From assembly GCF_016859285.1 (NCBI RefSeq), contig NC_053404.1:13701105-13765104 (forward strand): a DNA stretch of 64,000 nucleotides. Reading direction: 5' to 3'. Under the pieces are notes generated by a model. That model was not told where the DNA came from. It saw only the letters and a program-made list of their open reading frames with translations, and did no database searches. The stretch is from Xiphias gladius (taxonomy: Eukaryota; Chordata; Actinopteri; Istiophoriformes; Xiphiidae). A program made the position numbers and the translations under genes. Shown here piece after piece: positions 2,866-58,195 of this stretch (within the stretch, counting starts at the first letter, position 1; each line of letters starts with the position of its first letter).

Positions 2866-20254
<17,389 letters not shown>

Positions 20255-25503: not shown

Positions 25504-26844
25504 TCATTTTCCTTCTTGCCCTGCCCACTCACTGTACCCTCCTTTATAATGTCTCACCCTGAGAACAAGAAACATAAAGAGAGTAGCTTAGTCTCCTATC
25601 ACTGTTGTTTGAATTTCTGCCAAAAGGTTATCAAGTGTTAAAAGAAACTGAAGCTCTATCTGAGGACATTGTACTCTAGCTGCAGAACCAGGACTGATTA
25701 ATAATTAAACAGCAACACGTAAACTTTGCCATTGCCTTCGCATTATTTACCTGCTAAATCCCAGTTGACGGGCGATGTCCAATGCTTTGGCGCTCCTGTT
25801 GCCACTTTTGCAATGAAACACGATGTTGGCGTCATCTTTCCCAGGAGCCTTCACTTCAAACTTCTGCTGAAAGCCCTCTGGGGACAGGTTCAGAGACTCT
25901 TCCAGGTTGCCCACTGATATTCACACACACATATGAATATGAAATTTAAAAAAAAAAAAAAAAAAGAAAGAAAAATCCCCACAGAAAACCACACTTTTCC
26001 CCTCTTTGTACATGTGTTGCCACTTACATGGGATGTTGACAGCATCTGGAATGCGTCCAGCCTGGTGTTCATCAGGATTCCTCACATCAAATAGCTGAAT
26101 GTCACGGTTGGACAACATGCTCTTCAGCTGCGAGTAGGTCACCACTGAAGCTGAGATGGAAACAAAACAAGACACTTTAGTATAACAATAACATTCAACT
26201 TTTGCCAGTTTAAAGCCTATTTACTTAAACTGACCATCCACTGATTTAATAGCAACCTGTTATTTTAACTTCCTCTGCAGGTAAATGCTGTTGTTGTCTG
26301 CTTTGAGGGTAAACTAGAGCTTTGACCATTCTTTTCCATTTGAAACAAAATTGCCAGTCAGCCAAACTCTCTGTTTCAAGCAGTCAGGAACAACACTGGA
26401 CGCACAGCCGGAAGTCCATTCGTCGTGAAGACGTTGGCAGCAAACGCAAAGGCAGGCTTTGATAGTGGCATAAACTACTACAGTAACTTGGCTACAAAAC
26501 ATTTTTTACATTGGTAAGCACTTAACAGCTCTTTAAAACGACAATAATATGAATATTACGACACCCAGAAGATTAAAAGTTCACTACTAAGAGACACAGA
26601 CACGTAGACCTGCAGGACTAGCATTGGGTGACTGTATATCAGGATACATATATTTTATTTTACCATTGTCCGGTGCTTCTCCGAATTTAGGACTTGAGGT
26701 TGTAAAAGTCCGTAAAACCGAACCAATGGTCTTGCAAGACCTGCGGTTCACTTCGGCAACAACAGGGCAGAAACTACGTGACAGCACATAGGACAGCATG
26801 ATGGCGACAAGTGCACAGTTCATGCAACGCCGAGTAGTTGCCAT
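25504..26844 (-). CDS. Single-domain rhodanese / thiosulfate sulfurtransferase-like protein
   Basis: Persulfide-handling sulfurtransferase of the TSTD1/TSTD3 (Hsp67B2-like) type. Coding exons: 26844-26664, 26150-26028, 25913-25751 and 25558-25504; all GT-AG; total 522 nt, 173 aa. Residues 1-60 are basic and Ser/Thr/Cys-rich, with a hydrophobic stretch at 11-21 and an R-T-F-T-T-S-S-P cleavage-like motif, so mitochondrial import is likely (inference). The rhodanese domain covers about 62-168: LFDVRNPDEH, then GRIPDAVNIP, then the active loop CKSGNR at 136-141 (CxxGxR, catalytic Cys136), then HYKGGYSEW near the end. The small last exon (55 nt) was located by phase and the GGYSEW motif. Start: ATG at 26844 lies in a strong context (AGCCATGG); the frame runs further upstream without an ATG. 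TSTD1 and TSTD3 cannot be separated by eye, so no symbol is given. Confidence 0.88.
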
Positions 26845-30830: not shown

Positions 30831-32575
30831 AGAAGTTGGCACACAATATGTTTCTGATACTTTTATAACATTGCGAGTATTCACCAGGTGCTTGATATCC
30901 CACAGAGGTTGGACAATGCCCCTCAACTGTGCATTACCAAATCTGGACAAGTATGAGGCAGTTGGGAGTCAGATAAACTTGATCTAGTTCCAACTCTACC
31001 CAAGACAGGGAAACACAGGGAGATTTAGAAACAGCCATCCATTTATTACAGATGCTTGTCCATTTGTTAGATTCATCATTAAATCAATGTATGTGCAGAA
31101 AGCAATTAAGGGATTTACAACAACTTTGTAAAAGATTACATAGTTGAAAGAGCTGGTGGTCATCGGACACGGATGCTCCCTAAGTACAGTGTATCCCAAA
31201 CTGCTCAGCAGCAACAGCGGACATGTTAGGAAGCACCCACACTGAATTCACTTCTGTTACAAAGTGATACTCAAATCCTTGTTCTGACTGTGGACTGGGG
31301 TTGGGCACTGACTTGCTTATTTTAGTGCGGGACACAGATATGGTCACGTCTCTATTTTTATCAGGACTCGATTACTGTCATAAATAACAATTTCAATAAA
31401 AAACAACTGATACTTTTTAAAATCAAATATTTGATGTTTTCTATGCAGTGGCTTCGGCAAATGATCTTCATTCAACCTTTGTAATACATTTAAATAGCTT
31501 CTTTGCAGCCATGTAATTAATTAAATTGTGAGCATGTGGAAGAAATACTCAAATCCTTTACTTGTGTAAAACCTGCAGTACCACAGTGTGGAAGTACAAC
31601 ATTACATGATTTAGTTGTACACGGTTGGCAGTAAAATGTCCTCAGGTCTCAAGAATACATTTAAGAGTGTTCAATTACTGATCTGTTTACATATGAGCAG
31701 TATCTTAATGCTGCATATAGTCTGTGTGTATTAATGCAGTAAAACTTAAAATAAACTACCATCTCTTTGGAAGAAAGTAGTTCCAGTGAAGACTGTTGAA
31801 AGCGAGGTCTGTCATTTAGTCCTGTTGAAAGCGAGGTCTGTCATTTAGTCCAAGTCAAGTCATAAGTCTTTATACACTAATCACAAGACACGCTGCAAGT
31901 CATTCAGTTCTCTGAATGCTGGTCAATAACCAAAAATGTTCCTTTTAAAGCTGTGTTAATAGTGTTTTGTTTTGTTTTGTTTTTTTACATAATGGAGACC
32001 AATTCCTTCCAGTTCAAAAATACTAATAAATGAATACATCACTGCAAGGTCTCCCTGTCCCTACCCTATCTAATATTATTGTTCTGGGATTTTATCAGGT
32101 CAAAACTTGAGACTTGAGCAGTGGCTCAACATACTGCAACTTAAGAAAGCACATGCAAATAATCAAAACACAACCAAACAGACAAACATGCTGCAAGTAA
32201 ACACAAAAAAAAAAAAAAAAAAAAAAAAAGCACTGCAAATACACACAGTACACGTGTTGTCAAATTGATGAAGACGTTTAATTAATTTGCTTGTGTTTTG
32301 TCTAGAGTGTTATGCTCTTACAGGGGAACAGCAGAAATAATCTTGGAGGTGCCGGGAAGAGAGTTTTGTGACATGACTCCTCAGGAACGGACGGGAGCAA
32401 TATCACAATGTAAAAGTACTCAGTTACACATAAAAGTCCTGAATTAAAAGTTTTACTTGAGGTATTATCTGCAGAATATGTTTAAGGTGTTAAAGTAAAA
32501 ATACACATTATGCAGAAGCCAGTTTCATATTATTATAATATATATATTATATAATACATAAACCTTTTATTTTAA
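30831..32575. other. Intergenic region before the cstb-side array
   Basis: AT-rich, with a direct 22-bp duplication near 31795-31850 (a 'gttgaaagcgaggtctgtca' block twice), a poly-A run of about 26 bp at 32203-32228, and an AT palindrome near 32535-32560. No gene could be supported. Confidence 0.5.
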
Positions 32576-33328
32576 TCATTTTAACTACTATACATATTGT
32601 TGGGTAGTCAGCTTAATGCATAAATGCCTCAAATTTTAGTTGTTGATCACAGACCATGTTTTGTATGTAAAATCTGAAAAGTCACTAAATGGTAAGTGGC
32701 TGCATCTATATAATGCCTTTCACAATGTGTTTACAAACACACTCACACATGCATAGCAGCAAGCGACCATGCAAGGTGCTGACCTTACCAGAGCTGAGTT
32801 ACACAGGGGGCTTTAATCCTAATAGGCAACTCTGTTTTTGGGACCTGCTGATCAGCTCCACAGCAGAATTTAAAAAAAAAAAAAAAAAAAAGCTTGTGAA
32901 GCAGTTTAGTTAGTCTATGACTTATTAAACAATGAACTGGACTAATCAGTGAGTGTGATTCATCTTCCCAGGTTTCAGAGTAATCAGTGCGTGAAATTCC
33001 AACTTAAGACTTGCCAGCAGTGTGTTGAAGACAAGGCTCAACTGTGACATCCAAACACAACACCTCCGCCCTAACACATTGTTGTAAAGAGGGACAGACA
33101 AAGAGACACATTGAAATGTTTTCTACCTACCTCCCCTACTCTTACTTTAAATGATCTATAATAGGAATATAAGCGTAAATTCTAAAGTTATTTAAAATCA
33201 GATACGTTTTTGTTATTTTTTTAATCAGCTTGCATTGTTTAAACCCACCTGCCACCCTCTCCTCCTACGCTGGTGGTACACTCCAAAGTATAAACGTGAG
33301 CGCCACACAGAAGCTGTTTGAAATGGTA
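32576..33328 (+). repeat. Tandem unit 1 of the cstb 5' array
   Basis: First of four head-to-tail copies. The unit opens with ATCATTTTAACT, carries a SINE-like cassette (GTAAGTGGCTGCATCTATAT to a poly-A run and AAGCTTGTG), and closes with GGTGGTACACTCCAAAG followed by TATAAA at 33289-33294 and CACACAGAAGCTG. That closing block resembles the segment just upstream of the cstb leader. Confidence 0.85.
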
Positions 33329-34080
33329 ATCATTTTAACTTCTATATGTATTGTTGGGTAGTCAGCTTAATGCATAAATGCCTCAAATTTAAGTTGTTGA
33401 TCAGAAACCAAGTTTTGTATATAAAATCTGAAAAGTCACTAAATGGTAAGTGGCTGCATCTATATAATGCCTTTCACAATGTGTTTACAAACACACTCAC
33501 ACATGCATAGCAGCAAGCGACCATGCAAGGTGCTGACCTTACCAGAGCTGAGTTACACAGGGGGCTTTAATCCTAATAGGCAACTCTGTTTTTGGGACCT
33601 GCTGATCAGCTCCACAGCAGAATTAAAAAAAAAAAAAAAAAAAAAAAAAGCTTGTGAAGCAGTTTAGTTAGTCTATGACTTATTAAACAATGAACTGGAC
33701 TAATCAGTGAGTGTGATTCATCTTCCCAGATTTCAGAGTAATCAGTGCGTGAAATTCCAACTTAAGACTTGCCAGCAGTGTGTTGAAGACAAGGCTCAAC
33801 TGTGACATCCAAACACAACACCTCCGCCCTAACACATTGTTGTAAAGAGGGACAGACAAAGAGACACATTGAAATGTATTCTACGTACCTTCCCTACTCT
33901 TTCTTTAAATGATCTATAATAGGTATATAAGCCTAAATTCTAAAGTTATTTAAAATCAGATACGTTTTTGTTGTTTTTTTAATCGGCTTGCATTGCTTAA
34001 ACCCACCTGCCGCCCTCTCTTCCTACGCTGGTGGTACACTCCAAAGTATAAACGTGAGCGCCACACAGAAGCTGGTTGAA
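33329..34080 (+). repeat. Tandem unit 2 of the cstb 5' array
   Basis: About 752 bp and full-length like unit 1, differing by scattered substitutions and by poly-A length. TATAAA lies at 34047-34052. Confidence 0.85.
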
Positions 34081-34740
34081 ATGGTGGTACACTCCAAAGT
34101 ATAAACAAAGTATAAATCTGAAAAGTCACTAAATGTAAGGCGTTAGCCTTTCACAATGTGTTTACAAACACACTCACACATGCATGGCAGCAAGCGACCA
34201 TGCAAGGTGCTGACCTTACCAGAGCTGAGTTACACAGGGGGCTTTAATCCTAATAGGCAACTCTGCTGATCAGCTCCACAGCAGAATTTAAAAAAAAAAA
34301 AAAAAAAAGCTTGTGAAGCAGTTTAGTTAGTCTATGACTTATTAAACAATGAACTGGACTAATCAGTGAGTGTGATTCATCTTCCCAGATTTCAGAGTAA
34401 TCAGTGCGTGAAATTCCAACTTAAGACTTGCCAGCAGTGTGTTGAAGACAAGGCTCAACTGTGACATCCAAACACAACACCTCCGCCCTAACACATTGTT
34501 GTAAAGAGGGACAGACTAAGAGACACATTGAAATGTATTCTACGTACCTTCCCTACACTTACTTGAATGATCTATAATAGGAATATATGCGTAAATTCTA
34601 TAGTTATTTAAAATCAGATACGTTTATGTTATTTTTTTAATCAGCTTGCATTGTTTAAACCCACCTGCCGCCCTCTCTTCCTACGCTGGTGGTACACTCC
34701 AAAGTATAAACGTGAGCGCCACTCAGAAGCTGGTTGAAAT
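34081..34740 (+). repeat. Tandem unit 3 of the cstb 5' array (shortened)
   Basis: Lacks the first roughly 100 bp of units 1 and 2 and instead opens with a second GGTACACTCCAAAGTATAAA block. It shares this start with unit 4, so units 3 and 4 come from one shortened ancestor. TATAAA lies at 34705-34710. Confidence 0.8.
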
Positions 34741-35335
34741 GTTGGTACACTCCCAAGTATAAACAAAGTATAAATCTGAAAAGTCACTAAATGTAAGGCA
34801 TTAGCCTTTCACAATGTGTTTACAAACACACTCACACATGCATGGTAGCAAGCAACCATGCAAGGTGCTGACCTTACCAGAGCTGAGTTATACAGGGGCA
34901 ACTCTGCTGATCAGCTCCACAGCAGAATTTAAAAAAAAAAAAAAAAAAAAAAAAAGCTTATTAAGCAGTTTAGTTAGTCTATGAATCATCTTTGATTCTC
35001 AAAATCCCCAAACAAGGAACCCCAAAGTCCTCGCCTAACCATGATTTCCCAGCTGTGTGTTGAAGAAAAAGGCTGAACTGTCACCTCACAACACAGCCAC
35101 TTCTCGGACTAACACACATTCTTGTAAAGAGGGAAGAACAAAGGGAAATATTGAAATTTATTTTATGTACCTCCCCTCCTCTTACTTCAAATTATTTACA
35201 ATAGGAATATAAGCGTTAATTCTAAAGTTATTTAAATTCAGATACTTTTTTTGCTGTTGTTTTAATCGGCTTGCATCGTTTAACCCCACCTCCCACCCTC
35301 TCCTCTTACGCTTGTGGTACACTCCAAAGCATCAC
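34741..35335 (+). repeat. Tandem unit 4 of the cstb 5' array (gene-proximal, most diverged)
   Basis: Shortest and most diverged copy. Where the other units read AAAGTATAAACG, this one reads AAAGCATCACATG, so the TATAAA is absent directly upstream of the gene. It leads into CACAGAAGCAGACAAG and the cstb leader. Confidence 0.75.
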
Positions 35336-35440
35336 ATGATTGACCGACTCAAAAAGAAAACCTCACAGAAGCAGACAAGTTTGGCTAAGTTCCTTTTTTC
35401 AGTTCATTGTAGTTACAACTGTAAAACTGTAACAGCAGCT
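35300..35440 (+). promoter_or_regulatory. cstb: cstb proximal promoter and 5' leader
   Basis: Inferred from position: the repeated promoter-side block ends here and the ATG follows at 35441. No TATAAA is present. The transcription start cannot be placed exactly; the CACAGAAGC block at about 35363 is shared with the array units and may be leader. Confidence 0.45.
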
Positions 35441-36676
35441 ATGATGTGTGGAGGTCTTTCCGATGTAACTGAGGCCGATGCCGAAGCCGAAGTTCAGAAG
35501 ATCTGTGACATCGTAAGTAGAACAAGGATCATAGTTAGACTTTGACTTTGGTCCCTCAAAACTATTCACCCACATTTAGCAGCGCCTCTGTTTTATTTTT
35601 GATATCGATGTCTATTCATTCTCACTCAGATGAAGCCCCATGCAGAGCAGAAAGCAGGGAAGACCTATGATGTTTTCACAGCCAAGAGATACAGGACACA
35701 GGTTGTGGCCGGGAAAAACTACTTCATTAAGGTGATTATTATTTACAAGGCAAACAAATCATGAAAGGTGATCATTTAATTTGTGTCCACAAGCTTATAA
35801 AAAATGTCATCTTTAAAGATATTTGGGGCTCCTTAGAAAAAAAACAGATGGATTACTTGAAACGAATTTTACTCTCTCGCAACAAGATCAAGTGAAATTT
35901 AAAGTGGCTATAATAAGTATTTTTTTCTATTTAAACAATGGATCACATAACTTGTGTGTGAAAGGGCTTGCTTATAGTGATGAACCCACAGGGGATTATC
36001 ACTGGACTCTGCAGTTCCCTTCATCTTTATGGAGACTTGTAGTGACTTCCAGCTATTTGTTTTGGTTTTCCAGCCCACAGCTTTAATGTTTTGGTTCACA
36101 GTAATACAGTTGGTACACAGTTGTATACAACTGTGTATCAACACAAAGAAACACCAACTTTTCCACGTCTGCAAGTTGTAAAAACAAATTTTTGGGGAAT
36201 TTTTGGAGTTTCCATTCCACAAGTTCTTTATGCACAAATTGAAAATGCACATAAAAAACGGGTGGATGGAAACACACTTTCAGACTCATAGCATCATTTT
36301 CGGACGCAGCAGGCAGCAGTTTTCAGCAGAATGCTCTAAAAATCCACTGTATGGTACCTGTCTGCCTCCAAACAGCAGACAGAGATAGTGAGCAACTAGA
36401 TTGTGAACATAGCGGTACATTTAGCACCTAAGGACCCAGATTGTTTTCTCAGGAGTTGTTGGAGAGCAAAGCAGAGCTAAAAAGGAGATGATTACTGGAC
36501 TCACATTCATCAGGTGGACACAAACACTTACTTTTGCTTCCTTGCAGGTCCATGTGGGAGGAGATGAACATGTTCACCTCCGTGTTTACAAAAGACTCCC
36601 ATGTCATGGAGAAGAGTTTGAGCTGTCTGGTATCCAGCAAAACAAGAGTCTCCAAGACCCCATTGAGTACTTTTAA
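35441..36676 (+). CDS. cstb: Cystatin B / stefin-type cysteine protease inhibitor
   Basis: Cytosolic inhibitor of papain-like proteases (cathepsins). Three exons, 35441-35512, 35630-35731 and 36548-36676, both introns phase 0, total 100 aa (human CSTB 98). No signal peptide and no disulfide cysteine pairs, as in stefins. Visible protease-binding parts: N-terminal MMCGG (the stefin glycine), QVVAG at 48-52 in the first hairpin followed by KNYFIKVHVGG, and a second-hairpin Leu-Pro at 75-76. The C terminus is IEYF, like the TYF of human CSTB. Start: the first of two adjacent ATGs, as in human. The gene lies beside mix23, which in human borders CSTA, so it could be called the shared csta/cstb orthologue. 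An AATAAA follows at 36856-36861. The phase-0 exon 2/3 junction is compatible with the extra terminal exons at 41363 and 47855. Confidence 0.93.
35985..36480. repeat. Fish interspersed repeat in cstb intron 2
   Basis: Related to 5505-5820 in drd3 (see that entry). It carries 'ttttggttttccagcccaca', a GTTTTGGTTCAC block and a final 'acccagattgttttctcagg' stretch. It accounts for most of cstb intron 2. Confidence 0.5.
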
Positions 36677-36855
36677 TGGGATCATAAACCAAGCATAGCA
36701 TAAAGGCTGCACTCTCAATTTAATCTGGTAATAATACTCTGTCTTATCTCTTTATATTAAACAATGTTACCAGTTACTAACATGTAATAACATACTGTAT
36801 ACGTAATGTAGATCATGATGACAGGAATATGTCAAAATTGAACTATTTTTGAATG

Positions 36856-36861
36856 AATAAA
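36856..36861 (+). terminator. cstb: cstb polyadenylation signal AATAAA
   Basis: A canonical hexamer 180 nt after the cstb stop codon; it is the first such signal downstream. If it is used efficiently, transcripts would not reach the extra exons further right. Confidence 0.6.
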
Positions 36862-39589
36862 TGATAATTGAATCAATCAGATATGTTATGATTCTCTTTA
36901 GTGTTGCTTTTCTTTCTGTGGTGGTTTCTGATTTGTAAAATAGCTGCAGGGCAGGCTGTACATTGACTTCAGAAAAGTGTTCAGATCCCTTCAACTTTTG
37001 CCCACTTCATTATGTTGTGGATTAAATTTTAAATGAGTAAAATTGCCATTTTTCCCATTAATCTAAGCTGAATAACCCATAATAATTAAGTGAAAACATA
37101 TTTTTAGACATTTTTGCAGATGTATCGAAAATCAAAAAATGAAATCTCATCTAAATTAAATTACTGTAAGATTTCGTTTCAAGTAAATGTGGCAGCTAAA
37201 GCTGTTTCACTTTGGACTTATATGTGTGGAAAAATTGGAAAATCCACTCTGACATAGTATTTTACATAGATTTGAATAATACTGTGGGGTTAGAGTTCAC
37301 TTTTATTTCCTGAATTTAAATTTAAACGAATGTCTTTCACAGACTTTATTCGTTTTTTCTTCCAGAGATAAATTGCAGACTTAAATACCTTAAACTCTTC
37401 AACCCCTCAGACCTGCCAGTAGGCCAGTCATTGCAAACTTGTGCTGTGCGGTCAGATATTATTCAAAACCCAAAGAACTTTATTTCAATATTTTAGTAAA
37501 GATCCCGAAATTTCTTAAGATACGAAATATATTGGGCTGAATTTTGGCCAGGTATGTAAAAATGATGCACAATACATTTAAATTATTATATCCATTTGCT
37601 AGAATGGTGCAGCTCTAAAGATATAATTAGTGAAATATGTGTGCCACAGTAACAAGTTTGCCAAGTCCTCACTTTCTTATCCATCTGTCTTATAGCCAAA
37701 CACCACTCTCTCATAATTCTGCAGGTTTAACAGGTCCACTTTTTACATAGCAGACATTTTAGCTTGTCAAAACAGGAAACGCCCAGGTGTAATTGATGAC
37801 ATTAAAAACAACAGCATTTCCTTTAGGTGAACTAGTTCCAGGGTTCTGATATTGTGCGTGCAGGCACAATCTTTACTTACTGGGACACTTGATGGAACGG
37901 AGCAAAATATTTGTTTCACCTATGCTTTTCCGGCACTGTCAAAATGCAAACCTTTTACCCCATGACTTTATGGCAATAAATTGATCGGACTCTCTTTTCT
38001 TGTAGGTTCCAGAATAGTGTTTTAAAAAAAATCCTCATCTCATCTAGCTGTAGTACGGCGGAGCGCAGTGCTCTTTTTTTTTAAGGATTACACACTTGAA
38101 AGTCACTCAGTACAACTAGTCCAACCTGAGCTCCATTTAGGGCCTTGCTCACGGTCATATAGTTGGTAATAAAGGAGGGACAGAGCACTAAGGTTTATCC
38201 TGTTATAAGTTTCATCTCTATTAATTATTGACAATAATTTTAAGCAACATGGGTTGGTCAGTTTGCTTGCTCAAGGTGTTGTCAGTGGTGGTAATAAGGG
38301 AGGGGCAGGCACTCAGGTTGTGGCTCTAGCTGTGGCTTAGAGTTAAAGGTGGAGTGCAATGATTTTGTAACTTTTCCAATCAAACAAGCTTTCAGAAAGA
38401 AAAAGCACAAGTTCGCTAAACCTTGAACAGTAACAATTTACTTTTGAAATCCCCCTATTTAGCATTTATATTCAGTACATAAACGCGATAAATGGTTTAT
38501 AAAACACAATAATGTAGTTGTTAGCAAATATAAGGACATTTAAAAAAGGGATAGCTGATGGATTCTCACGAACTGTCTCTGTTAAACGTGATTTTGGCAA
38601 TCTTCCAAATCCAACCCAAATCAAACCAAATCCTGCAAGCCATGCAGTTAAAAATGTTGAAACGGTTGATTGTACTAAATTACAGTCCAGCTTTTTCTTG
38701 GGGACATATTAGCCACCTTCCAGTCAGTTAATTTCATCATTTGAAAGCTGTTCCTGTTTTCAAGCACATGCATGATTTATGTTTCTGCAAACAAATGAAG
38801 TAACTTTGCAGAAACTTGACCTTTCTCTCTGCAGTTCAAAACTCATAAAGTCACTTTTTTATAATTGTGTGTATATGTTTAATTTTCTTTTAACTCCTAT
38901 TCCATGAAGTGTTCTTGTAAATTTTATTGGCATGTGACTAAGTGGAGGAAATATTAATGTCCTTATTTCTGTCTTAAATTATAAATTCTGTCTTATTTTC
39001 AACATTATTCACCATTCAAGGCTGACTTGATGAGGTTTAACTGCTCAGTGTACTTTTTACCAAAGCAACTAAATTGGCCACTTAAATATCTACCACTAAA
39101 AAACATTGGTGTTTTTATCTGCTCCAAAATGTTTTAATAACCAACTTTGCTATTAATATTTTTTTATACATTATTCATCTCAATTTCTCTCCTTTTTTGT
39201 GCCTGGCTGACCTCTCACAGGTTTTTGGTTTGGCTCCCTCACACATTTACACTGTTTTTGAGTCGTAATGTTATGCAGCTAATATGCATCTTCCGATGTT
39301 ATAATCTCCTGAAGTACGCTTTAATAGGAGGAAATGCAGCCAGTCTTTTAGTGGGAAAGTAAAGAAGCCCTAATTTTATTGTTTCACATTTAGCATCAAA
39401 ACAGTTCTAATCTTCGAATGATTGCATTATTTGAATAGCAGAATCAATATTTAAATTGTATTAAAAGAAAATTGTATTGAAATTGTATTACAAAAACATC
39501 TTGAAAAATTAGCTAACTGGATTTTTTGCTGAGAGTTATATGAGAAGATTCTGACCACTCTTGTTTCTGTATGCTAAATATTCTAAAAC

Positions 39590-39720
39590 CAAGAGACAGT
39601 TAGCTTAGTTCATCCCAAAGACTGGAAGAAGACGGGAAATAGCTAGCCTGGCTCTGTCCAAAGTAATCCACCTACCAGCACCTCTAAAGCTCACTAGTTA
39701 ACATGTATCTGTTCTGATTT
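39590..39720. repeat. Fish interspersed repeat (copy A)
   Basis: Carries 'gacagttagcttagttcatc', 'gctagcctggctctgtccaa' and 'cctaccagcacctctaaagc', a recognisable abundant teleost repeat. The counterpart in copy B is at 46080-46209. Confidence 0.65.
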
Positions 39721-40226
39721 TCAAGCCACCTGGGGGTTGTGGATACCCTTAATATGCCGATAATACCTAATACCCGAAAATGCTCTGTATAGCTAAAGGG
39801 AACTGAAAAGTCACTACAAGAAACATCTCTCAAATATTTGTAGTTATTTGATTCTTTGTCAATATAAAAGTAATCAATCATAGCTGCTTTAAAGATACAA
39901 CAGGTGATCAGAATCAGAATTACACAATTTGAAACGTGTATTCTTTTGAGAAGTGCCACAATTTAAGCTGGAATTTGTTCAGTAATTCATCAAGGATGAG
40001 CAACACTAACAACAGCGTCAGGGCTGCGGTTACACATGTACTGTACCTCCACCCATAATGCCATGTATTAGATCCATCTTTATGCTGTAGTGAATACATT
40101 TGATAACCAGCTGAACTTGAGACATTAAAAGCACACAGTTGACTTCTCTGTTAACTTCAACTGACCTTGTGACAATGGCTAACATGCTTGGAGGATTAAC
40201 TGAGCCACAGGATGCCACTGAGTAGA

Positions 40227-41337
40227 GACCACAGAAGACAACTAAATTGGATGATCGCAGAATTCTTTCCTTGGTGAAGAAAAACCCTCCACAAAATCTA
40301 GCCAGGTCCAAGAGGAGGTAGGTGTATCAATGTCAAAGTCTCCAATTACGACACACGCCTTCATGAATGTAAATACAGAGGGTTTATGACAAGGTGCAGA
40401 CCACTGTTCACTCAAGAACAGAAAGGCCAGATTAGACCTTGCTAGAAAAAAAAAAGCCAGCCCAGTTCTGGAACAAGATTCTTTGGACAGATGAAACCAA
40501 GATTTACTTGTACTGGAATGATTGGAAGAGAAGAGTCTATAGGAGGAAAGGAACGGCTAATGATCCAAAGCGTACCATATTATCTGTCAAACATGCCATA
40601 ATATGCAGGCAGTGTTATGGCATGGTCACGTGTGGCTGCCAATGGAACTGTTGTCATTGGCGTTTGTTCATGATGTGACGGCTGATATAAGTAGCAGGAT
40701 GAATTCTGAAGTGTACAGGGCTACACTATCTGCTCAGATTAAGCCAAATGCTGCAAAAACTAGGACAGAGCTTCACAGTACAGAGGAATAATGACCCAAA
40801 ACATACTGCTAAAGCAACGCAACAAGAGCTTCTCGAGGAAAAAGAAATTGAATATTCTTCCATGGCCAAGTCAATCACCTGACCTCAACCCAATTGAGCG
40901 TGCTTTTCACTTCCTGAAGACAAAACTGTGGGCAGAAAGACCCACAAACAGGCATCAACTGAAGGCGGCTGCAGTAAAGGCCTGGCTAAGAATCTCAAGG
41001 GAGGATACTCAGCGTTTGACAGGGTTCCAGTCTTCAGGTAGTCATTGGCTATGAAGGATTTTTGGCCAAGTAATAAAAATAATACTTTTAATAAATTTAT
41101 GTTGTTGTTGGTTTGTCCAATTACTTCTGAGCCTCTGAAAATGAGGGACTATGTATAAAAATGGCTGAAATTCCTAAACAGTTAATGCAATATTTTTGTT
41201 AAACCTCTTGAATCAAAGCTTAAAATCTACACTTCAGTCACATCTTGATGACTTCGTTTCAAATCCATTGTGGTGGTGTACAGAGGCAAAATAATGAAAA
41301 TTGTGTCACTGTCCAAATACTTATGAACCTAACTGTA
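40227..41337 (+). mobile_element. Tc1/mariner-like transposon remnant (copy A)
   Basis: The plus strand carries fragments of a Tc1-like transposase: WNKILWTDETKIYLYW, then HTAKATQQ, then WPSQSPDLNPIERAFHFLKT, which include parts of the DDE catalytic set. The frame is broken more than once, so this copy cannot encode an enzyme. The right terminal inverted repeat is clear and ends CCTAACTGTA at 41337. The matching left repeat was not found, so the 5' end is truncated or replaced. The left limit is where similarity becomes recognisable. It lies immediately upstream of the cystatin exon at 41363. Confidence 0.85.
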
Positions 41338-41362
41338 TAAACTGTATTTACTTTTCCCACAG

Positions 41363-41491
41363 GTTCACGCTGGAGGAGTGAACTACATCCACCGGAGTGT
41401 CTTCGAAGCATTTTTGTGTGATGGAGGAGAGTTAGTGATGCGTGATGTACAGCAGGACAAAACTGAAAACGAACCCCTCATAACTTTTTGA
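41363..41491 (+). CDS. Orphan cystatin terminal exon A (divergent, intact)
   Basis: After a strong acceptor (TTTTCCCACAG) an open segment of 43 codons including the stop begins VHAGGVNYIHRSVF and ends ENEPLITF. It has exactly the length (129 nt), start phase and opening VHxGG of cstb exon 3, but otherwise differs greatly. The second-hairpin Leu-Pro of stefins is missing (FLCDGG instead). No cognate exon 1 or 2 was found in the duplication. It is either the last exon of a decayed paralogue or an alternative last exon of cstb. Similarity to stefin C termini is moderate, and the exon-length match is the stronger argument. Confidence 0.65.
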   Translation, partial: VHAGGVNYIHRSVFEAFLCDGGELVMRDVQQDKTENEPLITF

Positions 41492-44400
41492 AGTGGTCAT
41501 ACCGTCTGTTTCAGCAATTATGTACCTAAAGGCTGCAGTCTCATTTTAAAGTGCTCTGCTTCTCATATTCTGAAATGATTCTACACCAAAATATTCCTTT
41601 ATGATTGATTTTCAATTTTTGATTTCAAGTGTGTTAACACATAGAGATGAAATTAAATGCAGGTGGGTAGGAGAAAGCTGAATGCATCACCTTCTAAAAA
41701 AATAGATAAAAATAAAAAAAAGTTTATTATTTTCTTCTTTTCTGTGAAGTCTGATTTTAAAATAGATGCAAGCTGGGTCGTCAGATATGGTAAGAATTAA
41801 TCAAAAGAAAAAAAAGAAGGCAGCTGAACCAAATGAAGACATTCACATAGGTCTGGCAGTTAAAATTAAACATGAATAAACAATTGGATTCTGCCTGGTG
41901 CCTATATAAGTAACAATTTCTGCAAATAAGGAGACACATGTTATAGTCTCTACTGATGTGCAGATCTTTTTGTAGTTTGGATTAACATGTGGTTTAGTTG
42001 TGATGCAGGTGGCATTTTATTTTTAACTCCACAGTCTCCTGGTAAATTGATCCAGCCATGACATAGATTTTTAACTAACTGTGATCAAATCTTGTGATTA
42101 AAAAACCTCCTCATGTTGTGAGTTTACACAAACCAGGAAACACTTTCTTATTGTCATTTACTTTTGACAGGAGCCCTGGACGAGAAATAAGATTTCATAC
42201 ACACTTATTAATGAAAAAACAAGAGAGAAGAATCAACTTAACGAGTAAACATAGACATGGACTAGGGTCCTGTCTGCCAGCTTTCCTGAACTAACCCCGT
42301 GTAAATTATGTGATGGCGGATGTTATTGAAGTGGGTGAGTTCAAATGTTGCTGCCACAAGGAATTGTGGGAAAGCATTATCTCCTTTTCTTTCATAAAGG
42401 GTGGTCCAGTGTACCCTATGTTTTACCCTATATTTTTAGAAATTTTTGCAGATGTATTGAAAATCAAAAAATGAAATCTCTCATCTAAATTAAATTACTG
42501 TAAGATTTCGTTTCAAGTAAATGTGGCAGCTGAAGCTGTTTCACTTTGGACTTATATGTGTGGAAAAATTGGAAAATCCACTCTGACATAGTATTTTACA
42601 TAGATTTGAATAATAGTGTGGGGTTAGAGTTCACTTTTATTTCCTGAATTTAAACATGTCTTTCACAGACTTTATTCGTTTTTTCTTCCAGAGATAAATT
42701 GCAGACTTAAATACCTTAAACTCTTCAACCCCTCAGACCTGCCAGTAGGCCAGTCATTGCAAACTTGTGCTGTGCGGTCAGATATTATTCAAAACCCAAA
42801 GAACTTTATTTCAATATTTTAGTAAAGATCCCAAAATTTCTTAAGATACGAAATATATTGGGCTGAATTTTGGCCAGGTATGTAAAAATGATGCACAATA
42901 CATTTAAATTATTATATCCATTTGCTAGAATGGTGCAGCTCTAAAGATATAATTAGTGAAATATGTGTGCCACAGTAACAAGTTTGCCAAGTCCTCACTT
43001 TCTTATCCATCTGTCTTATAGCCAAACACCACTCTCTCATAATTCTGCAGGTTTAACAGATCCACTTTCACTTATCCACCTCTTTGAGGCCTTTTACATA
43101 GCAGACATTTTAGCTTGTCAAAGCAGGAAAAGCCCAGGTGTAATTGATGACTTTAAAAACAACAGCATTTCCTTTAGGTGAACTAGTTCCAGGGTTCTGG
43201 TATTGTGCGTGCAGGCTCACAATCTTTACTTACTGGGACACTTGATGGAACAGAGCAAAATATTTGTTTCACCTATGCTTATCCGGCTCTGTTAAAATGC
43301 AAACCTTTTACCCCATGACTTTATGGCAATAAATTTATCAGACTCTCTTTTCTTGTAGGTTCCAGAATAGTGTTTTTAAAAAAATCATCTAGCTGTAGTA
43401 CAGCGGAGCGCAGTGCTCTTTTTTTTAGGATTATACACTTGAAAGTCACTCAGTACAACTAGTCCAACATGAGCTCCATTTAGGGCCTTGCTCAAGGTCA
43501 TATCGGTGGTAATAAGGGAGGGGCAGGCACTCAGGATTTGGCTCTAGCTGTGGCTTAGAGTTAAAGGTGGAGTGCAATGATTTTGTAACTTTTCCAATCA
43601 AACAAGCTTTCACAAAGAAAAAACACAAAATACGGTAAACCTTGAACAGTAACAATTTACTTTTGAAATCCCCCTATTTAGCATTTATATTCAGTACATA
43701 AACACGATAAATGGTTTATAACACACAATAATGTAGTTGTTAGCAAATATAAGGACATTTAAAAAAGGGATAGCTGATGGATTCTCACGAACTGTCTCTG
43801 TTAAACGTGATTTTGGCAATCTTCCAAATCCCACCCAAATCAAACCCAATCCTGCAAGCCATGCGGTTAAAAATGTTGAAACTGTTGATTGTACTAAATT
43901 ACAGTCCAGCTTTGCTTGGGGACATATTAGTCACATTCCAGTCAGTTAATTTCATCATTTGAAAGCTGTTCCTGTTTTCAAGCACATGCATGATTTATGT
44001 TTCTGCAAACAAATGAAGTAACTTCGCAGATACTTGACCTTTCTCTCTGCAGTTCAAAACTCATAAAGTCACTTTTTTATAATTGTGTGTATATGTTTAA
44101 TTTTATTTTAACTCCTATTCCATGAAGTGTTCATGTAAATTTTATTGGCATGTGACTAACTAGAGGAAATATTAATGTCCTTATTTCTGTCTTAAATAAT
44201 AAATTCTGTCTTATTTTCAACATTATTCACCATTCAAGGCTGAATTGATGAGGTTTAACTGCTCAGTGTACTTTTTACCAAAGCAACTAAATTGGCCACT
44301 TAAATATCTACCACTAAAAAACATTGGTGTTTTTATCTGCAGCAAAATGTTTTAATAACCAACTTTAGATTATTCAAGTGCTATTAATATTTTTTTTATA

Positions 44401-44536
44401 CATTATTCATCTCAATTTCTCTCCTTTTTTGTGCCTGGCTGACCTCTCACAGGTTTTGGGTTTGGCTCCCTCACACATTTCCACTGTTTTTGAGTCGTAA
44501 TGTTAATGCAGCTGCCCTGCATCTTCAGATGTTATA

Positions 44537-45805
44537 AAGCTCTGTGTTCTTAATCATACGTTTTGTGTAATGTGATTATAAGTACACTCCAGTTACACCA
44601 GTTACTAATGCTCCACAGGATGAGTCACACTTGATATAAAATACTACAAAATAATTTAATAACAATAATATAAATAATAATTGGAAAATTTATAATGTTC
44701 TTATACCTGTTCATAACTGCGTTAAAGTGTGTTATAAGCCATTTAGTTATTGTTCATGTGCTTCTTAAATGCTAAAAAGGGGGTTTTAAATTTAGTGTTA
44801 CTGGACTGTACATTTTGTCCCACATTATTAGATTTCATCTCAAAAATTGTACCTTGAGTACATTTATTTAAATACTGCAAAGCAACTGTGTTCATATCAT
44901 AAAATCTTATTTACATAATTTCAGTTTACAGTTTGTTTCATGTTTTTTCAGCATGTACTGAGTCCAGATTCAGTCATTAAGATAATGTTTCCGTAGATTT
45001 ATACACTGACAACCAAAAAATTTTCTTTCATGATGTTGAAATCAAACTAACATCGGTGGACCTTTGTGTCCACATACCTTCTGATTAGTCACCATGATTG
45101 CAGGTACAAAAGATGTAGTGTGTTTTCGTACTTATAGTCCATATACAGAAAATTTCATAAAAAACTTCATAAACTTTCAATTGTAAAGATGCCTTGTTTT
45201 TTAATTTTACATTTGCTGTGGATTATACCCATATCATCTTAAACTGCATACATAGCTACAAATACACACCAAGAATCTGTGCCTAGCGGTGTTTACAAAA
45301 CTTGTAAACGACCAAAAAGATTGATTCTCTACCTGATTGGTTTCAAGTCAGTTCATTCAACATCTGACAGAAGCACAATGGGAGAGATACACACTGTACT
45401 GAATTCAACTTGCCACTGCAAGTCCAAATGACCAAATTATCCAATTTCAACTGGTTTATTCCAAGTCAAAAGCTTCACGTTGCAACTGTCCTGAACAAGA
45501 AACTCTCACTATTTGTTGAGAAATACTAATATAATGGGAAGGAGGGGAAGTTGATGATTTCTTGCATTCTTTGAACATTTCTGCAGTGACAAAGGGTGTA
45601 GATAGGCTTTCCAAAATATTAGGGAGTGAACACAACCTTTTACTGATTTGCAAGTATCTACTGACCTCCTTCATGTCTGTATTTCTGAGATGATGCAAGT
45701 TCTCTGAACCGAAATGCTAGTAAAGAAATTTGCTCTTGGTTATGCAGTAACTTTACAAGTTATTACTGTCATTATAAAGACTGATTTTTGTGCCAGGCTT
45801 CCATC
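44537..45805. other. Block present in duplication copy B only
   Basis: Copy A goes directly from GATGTTATA to ATCTCCTGAAG; copy B has about 1.27 kb between them. No terminal repeats or target-site duplication are evident, so loss from A is the simpler reading. An 80-codon open frame on the minus strand (45698-45456, ending QREAFDLE) is unlike anything I recognise. Confidence 0.6.
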
Positions 45806-46079
45806 TCCTGAAGTACGCTTTAATAGGAGGAAATGCAGCCAGTTTTTTAGTGGGAAAGTAAAGAAGCCCTAATTTTATTGTTTCACATTTAGCATCAAAA
45901 CAGTTCTAATCTTCAAATGATTGCATGATTTGAAAAGCAGAATCAATATTTAAATTGTATTAAAAGAAAAATTGTATTAAAAAAACATCTTGAAAAATTA
46001 GCTAACTGGATTTTTTGCTGAGAGTTATATGAGAAGATTCTGACCACTCTTGTTTCTGTATGCTAAATATTCTAAAACC

Positions 46080-46209
46080 AAGAGACAGTTAGCTTAGTTC
46101 ATCCCAAAGACTGGAAGAAGACGGGAAATAGCTAGCCTGGCTCTGTCCAAAGTAATCCACCTACCAGCACCTCTAAAGCTCACTAGTTAACATGTATCTG
46201 TTCTGATTT
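46080..46209. repeat. Fish interspersed repeat (copy B)
   Basis: Duplicate of the repeat at 39590-39720, essentially unchanged. Confidence 0.65.
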
Positions 46210-46715
46210 TCAAGCCACCTGGGGGTTGTGGATACCCTTAATATGCCGATAATACCTAATACCCGAAAATGCTCTGTATAGCTAAAGGGAACTGAAAAGT
46301 CACTACAAGAAACATCTCTCAAATATTTGTAGTTATGTGATTCTTTGTCAATATAAAAGTAATCAATCATAGCTGCTTTAAAGATACAACAGGTGATCAG
46401 AATCAGAATTACACAATTTGAAACGTGTATTCTTTTGAGAAGTGCCACAATTTAAGCTGGAATTTGTTCAGTAATTCATCAAGGATGAGCAACACTAACA
46501 ACAGCGTCAGGGCTGCGGTTACACATGTACTGTACCTCCACCCATAATGCCATGTATTAGATCCATCTTTATGCTGTAGTGAATACATTTGATAACCAGC
46601 TGAACTTGAGACATTAAAAGCACACAGTTGACTTCTCTGTAAACTTCAACTGACTTTGTGACAATGGCTAACATGCTTGGAGGATTAACTGAGCCACAGG
46701 ATGCCACTGAGTAGA

Positions 46716-47829
46716 GACCACAGAAGACAACTAAATTGGATGATCGCAGAATTCTTTCCTTGGTGAAGAAAAACCCTCCACAAAATCTAGCCAGGTCCAA
46801 GAGGAGGTAGGTGTATCAATGTCAAAGTCTCCAATTACGACACACGCCTTCATGAATGTAAATACAGAGGGTTTATGACAAGGTGCAGACCACTGTTCAC
46901 TCAAGAACAGAAAGGCCAGATTAGACCTTGCTAGAAAAAAAAAAGCCAGCCCAGTTCTGGAACAAGATTCTTTGGACAGATGAAACCAAGATTTACTTGT
47001 ACCGGAATGATTGGAAGAGAAGAGTCTATAGGAGGAAAGGAACGGCTAATGATCCAAAGCGTACCATATTATCTGTCAAACATGCCATAATATGCAGGCA
47101 GTGTTATGGCATGGTCACGTGTGGCTGCCAATGGAACTGTTGTCATTGGCATTTGTTCATGATGTGACGGCTGATATAAGTAGCAGGATGAATTCTGAAG
47201 TGTACAGGGCTACACTATCTGCTCAGATTAAGCCAAATGCTGCAAAAACTGATAGGACAGAGCTTCACAGTACAGAGGAATAATGACCCAAAACATACTG
47301 CGAAAGCAACGCAACAAGAGCTTCTCGAGGAAAAGAAATTGAATATTCTTCCATGGCCAAGTCAATCACCTGACCTCAACCCAATTGAGCGTGCTTTTCA
47401 CTTCCTGAAGACAAAACTGTGGGCAGAAAGACCCACAAACAGGCATCAACTGAAGGCGGCTGCAGTAAAGGCCTGGCTAAGAATCTCAAGGGAGGATACT
47501 CAGCGTTTGACAGGGGTTCCAGTCTTCAGGTAGTCATTGGCTATGAAGGATTTTTGGCCAAGTAATAAAAATAATACTTTTAATAAATTTATGTTGTTGT
47601 TGGTTTGTCCAATTACTTCTGAGCCTCTGAAAATGAGGGACTATGTATAAAAATGGCTGAAATTCCTAAACAGTTAATGCAATATTTTTGTTAAACCTCT
47701 TGAATCAAAGCTTAAAATCTACACTTCAGTCACATCTTGATGACTTCGTTTCAAATCCATTGTGGTGGTGTACAGAGGCAAAATAATGAAAATTGTGTCA
47801 CTGTCCAAATACTTATGAACCTAACTGTA
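46716..47829 (+). mobile_element. Tc1/mariner-like transposon remnant (copy B)
   Basis: Same insertion as at 40227-41337, copied with the segment. It has a longer open stretch (47237-47533) holding NNDPKHTAKATQQ and WPSQSPDLNPIE; the Asp-to-Glu spacing there is 33 residues where Tc1 transposases have 34, which fits a one-codon loss. Truncated at the left, with the right terminal repeat ending at 47829. Not able to encode a full transposase. Confidence 0.85.
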
Positions 47830-47854
47830 TAAACTGTATTTACTTTTCCCACAG

Positions 47855-47983
47855 GTTCACGCTGGAGGAGTGAACTACATCCACCGGAGTGTCTTCGAAG
47901 CATTTTTGTGTGATGGAGGAGAGTTAGTGCTGCGTGATGTACAGCAGGACAAAACTGAAAACGAACCCCTCATAACTTTTTGA
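47855..47983 (+). CDS. Orphan cystatin terminal exon B (divergent, intact)
   Basis: Duplicate of the exon at 41363-41491, with the same acceptor, same 129-nt length and same stop. The only coding difference I see is Met to Leu in the middle (GTGATGCG against GTGCTGCG). Both copies therefore remain open after duplication. Function as for exon A. Confidence 0.65.
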   Translation, partial: VHAGGVNYIHRSVFEAFLCDGGELVLRDVQQDKTENEPLITF

Positions 47984-48786
47984 AGTGGTCATACCATCTG
48001 TTTCAGCAATTATGTACCTAAAGGCTGCAGTCTCATTTTAAAGTGCTCTGCTTCTCATATTCTGAAATTATTCTACACTAAAATATTCCTTTACGATTGA
48101 TTTTCAATTTTTGATTTCAAGTGTATTAACACATAGAGATGAAATTAAATGCAGGTGGGTAGGAGAAAGCTGAATGCATCACTTTCTAAAAAAATAGATA
48201 AAAATAAAAAAAAGTTTATTATTTTCTTCTTTTCTGTGAAGTCTGATTTTAAAATAGATGCAAGCTGGGTCGTCAGATATGGTAAGAATTAATCAAAAGA
48301 AAAAAAAGAAGGCAGCTGAACCAAATGAAGACATTCACATAGGTCTGGCAGTTAAAATTAAACATGAATAAACAATTGGATTCTGCCTGGTGCCTATATA
48401 AGTAACAATTTCTGCAAATAAGGAGACACATGTTATAGTCTCTACTGATGTGCAGATCTTTTTGTAGTTTGGATTAACATGTGGTTTAGTTGTGATGCAG
48501 GTGGCATTTTATTTTTAACTCCACAGTCTCCTGGTAAATTGATCCAGCCATGACATAGATTTTTAACTAACTGTGATCAAATCTTGTGATTAAAAAACCT
48601 CCTCATGTTGTGAGTTTACACAAACCAGGAAACACTTTCTTATTGTCATTTACTTTTGACAGGAGCCCTGGACGAGAAATAAAATTTCATACACACTTAT
48701 TAATGAAAAAACAAGAGAGAAGAATCAACTTAACGAGTAAACATAGACATGGACTAGGGTCCTGTCTGCCAGCTTTCCTGAACTAA

Positions 48787-49873: not shown

Positions 49874-49876
49874 AAC
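49640..49876 (-). mobile_element. tRNA-derived fish SINE
   Basis: Read on the minus strand it has a tRNA-like head with GTCCACTAACCGGGAGGTCG then a B-box-like GTTCGATCC, and a tail with AAAGCGCTTTGAGTGGTCGA. The A-box end is cut at the CCCCGTG junction. It is similar to the AFC-type SINEs of percomorphs, named from memory. Copies of a related tail seem to make up the cassettes in the cstb array (32690, 33444, 34136, 34794). Confidence 0.65.
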
Positions 49877-50164
49877 CCCGTGTAAATTATGTGATGGCGG
49901 ATGTTATTGAAGTGGGTGAGTTCAAATGTTGCTGCCACAAGGAATTGTGGGAAAGCATTATCTCCTTTTCTTTCATAAAGGGTGGTCCAGTGTACCCTAT
50001 GTTAAAGGAGATATGAAAGGAACGGAAGTACTAACTGACTGACTGTACACTTTCCTTGGCATTTAGAGAATTCGACCAGCTCTTATTACGGCTGCCACTT
50101 ATATACTTCTGGGTCATTTCCCTCATTTAGGAACCCTCTTCCTAAGTAAAAAAAAGACTTTGAC

Positions 50165-56070: not shown

Positions 56071-58195
56071 ATGAATTTCGTCAGATCGCGCTTTTCCATT
56101 GGCAACATTTTAGGTTCGTATCATTACGTTGAATGTCTGTGTTGTTTTCGGTCAATAACTGGGTGGCTCTGGCTTCTCTCCCACTTGGTATTTGTAGTTA
56201 ACTTGACCTTTAAATTATTGTAGTTGTAGCTAATAATCCAACATGCTTATACTCTTTTTTTTGTTTAACCACTTTTTCTTACGATGCCACGATTCGATTA
56301 AATGATTAAATGGTGCGTTACTCGACAGTTGTGTTGATCAATATAATGACAATTACAGTTCCTGTATTGTGTTATTTGTACTTGATGTTCACGTTTACTC
56401 ATCCCGTAGAAACGTCTCACTAAAAAACCTTGACCCTGCTAACTTTTTAGTTGTTTTATTACACGATGTCTCAGGATATGTTAACCACACACACCTCCAT
56501 CTTATTATGCAAGAGAGCAGCACATTTTCTAAGCCCTCAAGACTTTATGGTGTGAGTTATTTTGTGAGTACTTACTGTGTTTAGTCATGTAAAATTGGTT
56601 GTTGTGAGATTTTGGCATGAATTATGCATGCATGTGTTATAATTAGAGCTGAAATGACAACAGCAAATTAATCAGCAACTATTTTGAAAATCAGATAAAT
56701 AATTTTATAAGCCAAAATGAGCAGTTTTTAGTTGATAGTAAATTGAATCTTATTAGTTTTTGTTTATATCTGTTTGGACAAAAGCAATTTGGAAAAATCG
56801 CCTTGAGCTTTAGGAAATTCCAACATGCATTTTTTTCACTACTCTGTGACAGTTTTTACATAAAATGATCAAGCAAGAAAATAATCTGTAGATTGATCCA
56901 GGTAATGAAAATCATCGTTAGTTGCAGCCTTACAGCACATTTACTATTTTTTATTTATCTCAACAGGTCAGAGGTGCACACACGTTGCTGAAACATGGAG
57001 CCACAGAGGGATGTGCACTAAACCACAGGAGGTCAAAGCAGAGCCCGTGCCTGGAGAGCCTGTGCCTACAGTCCCAGCAGAAGGTAGAGTTTTGGATCCA
57101 GTTCAGCCACAGAAATTTACCACCACTCATTTGTTCTTAGTGTCTAATCCAGGATGCCATTGTAGGTGGCACAGCTTTACAAGGGAAAACTGCTCAAATC
57201 AATCAGGTGTTAAACTACTACATAAATTAAGTTTTTCAAAATGATTCAAAGATAGAAATCTACCATATTTATTTAGATAGATTTTGTAAATCACAGGTCA
57301 CTTCTTGTTCCCATAGCCACTGTGAATGTTTTTTTTAAAGTCCCAAAGGAAGGAGGGACACAGGAAGTGGGGTCACAATCCTGGGGTGTTAGATCTAATG
57401 ACTGGGGCTTGTGGACTTCTGCTCTGTTTGTTTGTTTTTTGGACACATGCTCTGTTTTTTCGTACAGCACCCCGTCCCGGGTTCAGAATCCCAGGCTCTA
57501 GACCCTCGGAGCTGGACAAGAAGATTTTGATCTGGTCGGGACGTTTTAAGACCGCAGACCAGATACCAGAGCTTGTGTCGTAAGTAGCCTCTTCCTGTTT
57601 ATACCAGACCTTGAGTCTGATTGGATCACTGTGTGATTTTAATTAAGTTGCATCCCAGTAAACAGAGCTAAGTTAACTGGATGAGCGGTGGTGAGACTGC
57701 TGCAGTTCAAAGACGGACTCTGTTTGGCTGGAGGTAATTAACTGACATCAGGTTGGAGATGATATCTGATGTACTGCTTTGGTAAAAGACATGATTGTCA
57801 CGCATATAAAACTGCAGACCTCCCACCTTATGTACACACAATGAACCAAGGCTCAGCATCAAACAATATTTATCTGTGATTAGTCAGTTGTATAAAGGAC
57901 ATAAGTGGCAGATGACTGAATTGTTGTGATCATAAAAACCTTCATTTTATAATAAAAAGTATTTTATAATATAAAGTATTTTTTCTAAACCCACCTGTGC
58001 CACAGGTATGAGATGATTGATGCTGCCCGAAACAAAATCAGAGTGAAAGCCTGCTATATGATGATGGCAGTCACAATAGGGGCCTGTCTGGTGATGGTGG
58101 TCCTGGGCAAGCGGGTGAGTGACAATAGATGAGTGCACTGTGTTTGGATGCTTCTCCATTATCTGATTGCAAGGAGCAAAGTGTTAGTTGAACGG

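Follow-up and report, generated by a model that had tools for sequence, protein, structure and literature searches.

Direct Tandem Copies of Promoter-Side DNA Upstream of a Stefin Gene in Xiphias gladius

The Stefin Gene and Its Neighborhood

We analyzed a window of 64,000 nucleotides from Xiphias gladius (contig NC_053404.1), in which a gene with three coding exons is preceded by an array of direct repeats (Table 1). The spliced 100-aa protein matches PF00031 (E 5.4e-14), and its translation contains QVVAG, the loop motif of type-1 cystatins. Judged by this predicted protein, the gene is a type-1 cystatin (stefin). Eleven solved cystatin sequences or designs were matched at E 1e-3 or better, and the protein resembles solved cystatin A (E 1e-21) and cystatin B (E 4.5e-21) about equally.

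Table 1. Coordinates of the stefin gene, the upstream array, and neighboring exons in the window
Feature	Position	Strand	Basis or remark
7tm_1 GPCR exon	19799-20239	-	Pfam
Rhodanese-domain exon	25924-26220	-	Pfam
Left flank and start of unit 1	32395..32690	+	left edge of the array (32573) falls inside
Unit 1	32573..33327	+	96.6% to unit 2 over 759 columns
GGTACACTCCAAAG + TATAAA, unit 1	33275..33294	+	block search
Unit 2	33327..34085	+	self-comparison, unit alignment
GGTACACTCCAAAG + TATAAA, unit 2	34033..34052	+	block search
Unit 3	34086..34743	+	left end shorter than in units 1 and 2; starts with the extra GGTACACTCCAAAGTATAAAC copy
Extra GGTACACTCCAAAG + TATAAA, unit 2/3 junction	34086..34105	+	block search
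GGTACACTCCAAAG + TATAAA, unit 3	34691..34710	+	block search
Recent partial unit (left half of the originally predicted unit 4)	34744..34984	+	has the shorter left end of unit 3 and the extra block
Extra GGTACACTCCCAAG + TATAAA, unit 3/4 junction	34744..34763	+	block search
Older promoter-side copy attached to the gene	35043..35330	+	16.7-19.3% from units 1-3
Gene-proximal block, then CATCACATGA in place of TATAAA	35316..35339	+	block search
Stefin coding exon 1	35441..35512	+	tblastn; borders from reading frame and GT/AG
Stefin exon 2, opening with an in-frame ATG	35630..35731	+	tblastn
Stefin exon 3 with stop codon	36548..36676	+	tblastn
DUF1075 gene exon	57467-57580	+	E 3e-14
Importin alpha-5-like exon	61251-62450	-	best solved match alpha-5 (9.2e-68), then alpha-7 (5e-63)

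Several neighboring exons could be assigned to families. We take the DUF1075 gene to be FAM162 and the 7tm_1 GPCR exon to be DRD3-like. Minus-strand exons at 52-54 kb, which by eye we presume to be MIX23/CCDC58, gave no Pfam match. Human CSTA, CCDC58, FAM162A, and KPNA1 (importin alpha-5) lie close to one another on 3q, with CSTB on 21q. The original prediction had named the gene cstb; the near-equal E values for cystatins A and B and the CSTA-like neighbors do not support this name over csta.

Two orphan stefin-like third exons were found by tblastn at 41354-41488 (E 4e-6) and 47846-47980 (E 2e-6), each 33-36% identical to exon 3 of the gene. Neither has a Pfam match, and no accompanying first or second exon was found by tblastn. 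Both lie near Tc1-like transposase relics, with DDE_3 in the one piece examined (40764-41051).

Structure and Divergence of the Array

Comparison of the window with itself by blastn revealed adjacent direct copies with recognizable junctions over 32573-35330. Segment 32573-33327 aligns with 33327-34085 at 96.6% identity over 759 columns, beginning in both at TAATCATTTTAACT, and 33420-34337 aligns with 34111-34984 at 91.5%. The gene-side segment 35043-35329 is 81.3-83.7% identical to each of the three distal units. The top off-diagonal score was 1254 bits, compared with at most 30.7 bits (19 bases) in 50 first-order Markov resamplings of 32401-35440. A search of 31500-37500 for inverted repeats (seed 11, minimum length 25) returned no pairs. 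The units measure 0.66-0.76 kb and lie in DNA of 36-39% GC, and each contains a run of A that is at least about 20 bases long.

This self-comparison bears out the predicted direct copies upstream of a cystatin gene and changes their layout. What had been described as the last of four units is a composite of a recent copy (34744-34984) and an older, diverged one (35043-35330). From unit 3 to the recent partial unit the block spacing is 658 bp. The two differ at 4 of 153 columns before the A-run and at 4 of the last 32 after it, which leaves the right border of the partial unit uncertain. Between 34984 and 35043, 32-33 of 52 aligned columns differ, and the stretch is not usefully alignable.

On the gene side, similarity stops at about 35330, and the ATG at 35441 follows roughly 110 bp later. 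A tblastn search of the array with the stefin as query gave no exon above chance (best E 22). Both results agree with the claim that promoter-side DNA was multiplied without the coding exons. No stop-to-stop open reading frame of at least 80 aa is listed between 31248 and 35212, and the window contains no RNA family at the Rfam gathering score and no tRNA detectable by ARAGORN.

The left flank and the start of unit 1 together look like a single copy of an interspersed repeat common among teleosts. Outside the array there are only two short matches in the window, one of 27 bp (E 0.02) and one of 26 bp (E 0.4). Six words typical of teleost repeats had no match in the literature, and such words were also unmatched in viral contigs and prokaryote genomes. 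The array has no relatives in the viral contigs or prokaryote genomes scanned, both of which apparently contain no fish and are therefore silent on conservation. A literature search for tandem promoter duplication at teleost cystatin genes found no match, and one on the synteny of cystatins A and B in fish was likewise empty. An exact 29-bp tandem duplication is present at 31793-31851.

Within the promoter core, units 1-3 differ from one another at 11-12 of 280-281 columns (3.9-4.3%), and the gene copy differs from them at 47-54 of 280-281 columns (16.7-19.3%). Against the distal consensus, the gene copy has 49 mismatches in 282 core columns, and these are not clustered: among 20000 shuffles, 76% matched or surpassed the longest run (19), 74% the squared-run sum, and 16% the windowed variance. 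Because shuffles reach these run statistics, the 16-base identical end of the core is not unusual. Conserved regulatory blocks in the core, as the original prediction had envisaged, are therefore not supported; duplicated factor sites would have to lie in a core whose conservation shows no clustering. The likeness that survives 17-19% divergence could come from mild, evenly spread constraint.

TATAAA and the Shared Blocks

The block GGTACACTCC(A/C)AAG occurs six times on the plus strand of the window (Table 1), with TATAAA directly after the first five. The original count of four had missed the copies at 34086 and 34744. TATAAA was found at 33289, 34047, and 34705, as had been stated, and is likewise lacking in the gene-proximal copy, which reads (G)CATCACATG at that place. 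The longer sequence there, CATCACATGAT, contains TCACATGA, one of three TCAYRTGA sites in the window and a lead chosen post hoc.

The two additional blocks are located at unit junctions. A 24-base word, GGTGGTACACTCCAAAGTATAAAC, is found at 34030 and again, 53 bp farther along, at the unit 2/3 junction (34083); the unit 3/4 junction has an altered version of it. From this arrangement, the extra blocks look like a templated insertion that would have arisen a single time and been carried along when the 658-bp unit was duplicated.

Over the whole window, the plus strand has 52 occurrences of TATAAA and the minus strand 44. When a TATA matrix was applied with a cutoff score of 7, the array was found to hold 8 sites, compared with about 2 expected from the window rate of 0.78 per kb; the 8 sites are copies of four. 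Because the distal copies are about 4% apart, single inheritance is the simplest account of their TATAAA, and TATAAA after the block is probably one inherited distal state. Similarity to the gene copy ends at TATAAA, and a loss in the gene-proximal unit is therefore indistinguishable from a gain in the distal ancestor. With so little divergence among the distal copies and the end of similarity at this very place, we do not regard TATAAA kept only in distal copies as the meaningful pattern originally proposed.

Past GGTACACTCCAAAG, the gene copy differs from the distal copies at 17-18 of 37 columns, and the likeness is gone. The motif CAC(A/T)CAGAAGC, said to be shared with the 5' side of the gene, has weak support as a homologous feature, as 111 of 5000 random 71-bp stretches drawn from 36800-63900 match the unit tail equally well. 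The CACAGAAGC similarity beyond the position of TATAAA is suggestive at best.

History of the Array and Alternative Readings

Divergence among the distal units is unevenly distributed. Units 1 and 2 show 1 difference in 452 bases in their middle (32668-33119), whereas their ends together show 20 in 302 bases (Fisher p 1e-7, with borders picked after viewing the differences and one A-run difference at 32871 omitted). Pairwise comparison of units 1-3 over the core gives 0-1 differences in the 112 columns of the left half, compared with 10-11 in the 168-169 columns of the right half; for the three unit pairs, Fisher tests of left against right half gave 0.004, 0.055, and 0.031. The left-half identity does not reflect constraint, because the gene copy differs from each of units 1-3 at 26-27 of 112 columns there (and at 21-27 of 168-169 in the right half). 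A near-identical middle with differing ends suggests gene conversion or repeated unequal exchange; assembly smoothing is a possible alternative source.

Two-against-two sites, scored with gap columns and 32925-33007 excluded, give a mixed picture. Eight such sites join unit 3 with the partial unit; of these, six fall within 9 bp next to an indel and perhaps arose from one event. Three join unit 1 with the gene copy. Two nearby sites (33215 and 33227) join unit 2 with the gene copy. They do not fit a single simple tree, and the working promoter may have taken part in exchange.

From the divergence classes and junctions, we read the array as the probable product of two rounds, an old duplication on the promoter side and a recent amplification of its distal copy, with the partial unit abutting the old proximal flank. 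In this scheme, the roughly 290 bp next to the gene on its upstream side would first have gained a second, distal copy, which would then have been duplicated in tandem together with several hundred upstream bases. Next would have come a junction at which DNA was lost and a short templated insertion was made, and duplication of the resulting 658-bp unit would have completed units 1-3 and the partial unit. Finally, the unit middles may have been homogenized by gene conversion or unequal exchange. This order is read from the degrees of divergence. The gene's own proximal flank would remain the working promoter, and the distal copies, which we assume to be mostly passive, might at most add duplicated binding sites with a modest change in expression. 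We consider it fairly probable that the array is such a nested and mostly neutral local tandem duplication of the stefin 5' flank, with distal copies that are mostly passive and have at most a modest effect. If the copies are passive, as we expect, the locus shows an ordinary duplication close to the start of a gene and cautions against taking repeated TATA boxes as independently conserved.

It is unlikely, though worth some consideration, that stefin expression is increased by the extra promoter or enhancer units and that the array is kept for dosage. No copy is more than about 2.9 kb from the coding start, all have the orientation of the gene's own flank, and the surplus of TATA-matrix sites would fit. 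A precedent by analogy is cyp51A TR34/TR46 of Aspergillus fumigatus, where promoter repeats of 34-46 bp are reported to enhance transcription (PMC9239056). These duplicated 34- or 46-bp segments share with the present array a direct tandem duplication before the gene that leaves the coding part uncopied. The cyp51A repeats, however, have known factor sites and an effect on transcription, whereas the units here, at 0.66-0.76 kb, are some 14-22 times longer and carry no known factor site. Moreover, the core lacks clustered conserved sites, and the TATA-like matches reduce to copies of four. In C. elegans rcan-1, one report describes a complex rearrangement with inversions and coding copies in which the altered upstream region accompanied lower expression (PMC7058356). 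That locus resembles ours as a local multistep duplication altering the upstream regions of a gene; unlike it, the present array contains only direct, noncoding copies. If the copies were active, the locus would amount to a dose series of a vertebrate promoter made by nature, in which copies of different age stand next to each other, and would be useful for learning how promoter copy number sets the expression of a cysteine-protease inhibitor.

Descent of the distal copies from the promoter of a lost neighboring stefin gene, with its coding part deleted, seems improbable. The exon-3-like relics indicate that the locus probably had other stefins, and set against the gene copy the distal copies are old. 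Nonetheless, tblastn found no stefin exon in the array, promoter-core queries matched nothing in the interval from 36.7 to 48.8 kb with an E of 1 or less, and the 33-36% protein identity of the relics suggests a split much older than the 17-19% divergence of the promoter DNA.

An assembly error in copy number or order merits little credence. The almost identical middles of units 1-3 invite collapse or expansion, as do the long A-runs, but substitutions, indels, and dissimilar junctions set the units apart, which are thus not one sequence pasted repeatedly; in addition, the window is free of N.

We also regard as very doubtful that the TATAAA at 33289 fires as a remote promoter, with a first exon ending before the donor at 33446 spliced to exon 2 to give a shortened inhibitor. 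The donor-like ATG/GTAAGT at 33446 scores 5.87, compared with 1.15 and 3.64 for the gene's own donors, and exon 2 opens with an in-frame ATG. However, 27 of the 3557 plus-strand GT sites in the window score at least 5, making a chance donor likely; its counterparts in unit 3 and the partial unit score lower (3.25), and the putative remote exon holds several upstream ATGs by eye. The fuller proposal is scarcely credible. In it, the array would represent evolving remote promoters whose distal TATAAA copies start transcripts spliced from 33446 to exon 2, the product would be a stefin shortened at its N terminus and expressed in a pattern of its own, and the proximal start would be TATA-less with a TCACATGA E-box. 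A second donor-like ATG/GTAAGT, at 32692, also outscores the stefin gene's own donors.

The nested local duplication that we favor resembles ordinary local tandem duplication with exchange in its direct copies, apparent templated junction insertion, and near-identical middle. Placement at the 5' end of a gene looks like the sole special feature of an otherwise ordinary local duplication.

A parallel with the human CSTB expansion of Unverricht-Lundborg disease, which the original prediction itself had called loose, was set aside. That expansion involves a GC-rich 12-mer present in 2-3 copies in healthy individuals and over 30 in diseased ones (PMC9655992). The likeness is that of a tandem repeat on the promoter side of a stefin gene; the units here differ from the GC-rich dodecamer in both length (0.66-0.76 kb) and composition (DNA of 36-39% GC). 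The parallel is further weakened because the importin alpha-5-like and DUF1075 neighbors match those of the human CSTA locus.

The neighborhood is itself prone to duplication, with a segmental duplication just downstream of the gene. Its two copies, 37098-42294 and 42430-48786, are 93-99% identical in three pieces, and the second is about 1.2 kb longer. An exact 130-bp repeat at 42293-42422 and 49874-50003 is possibly a young mobile element.
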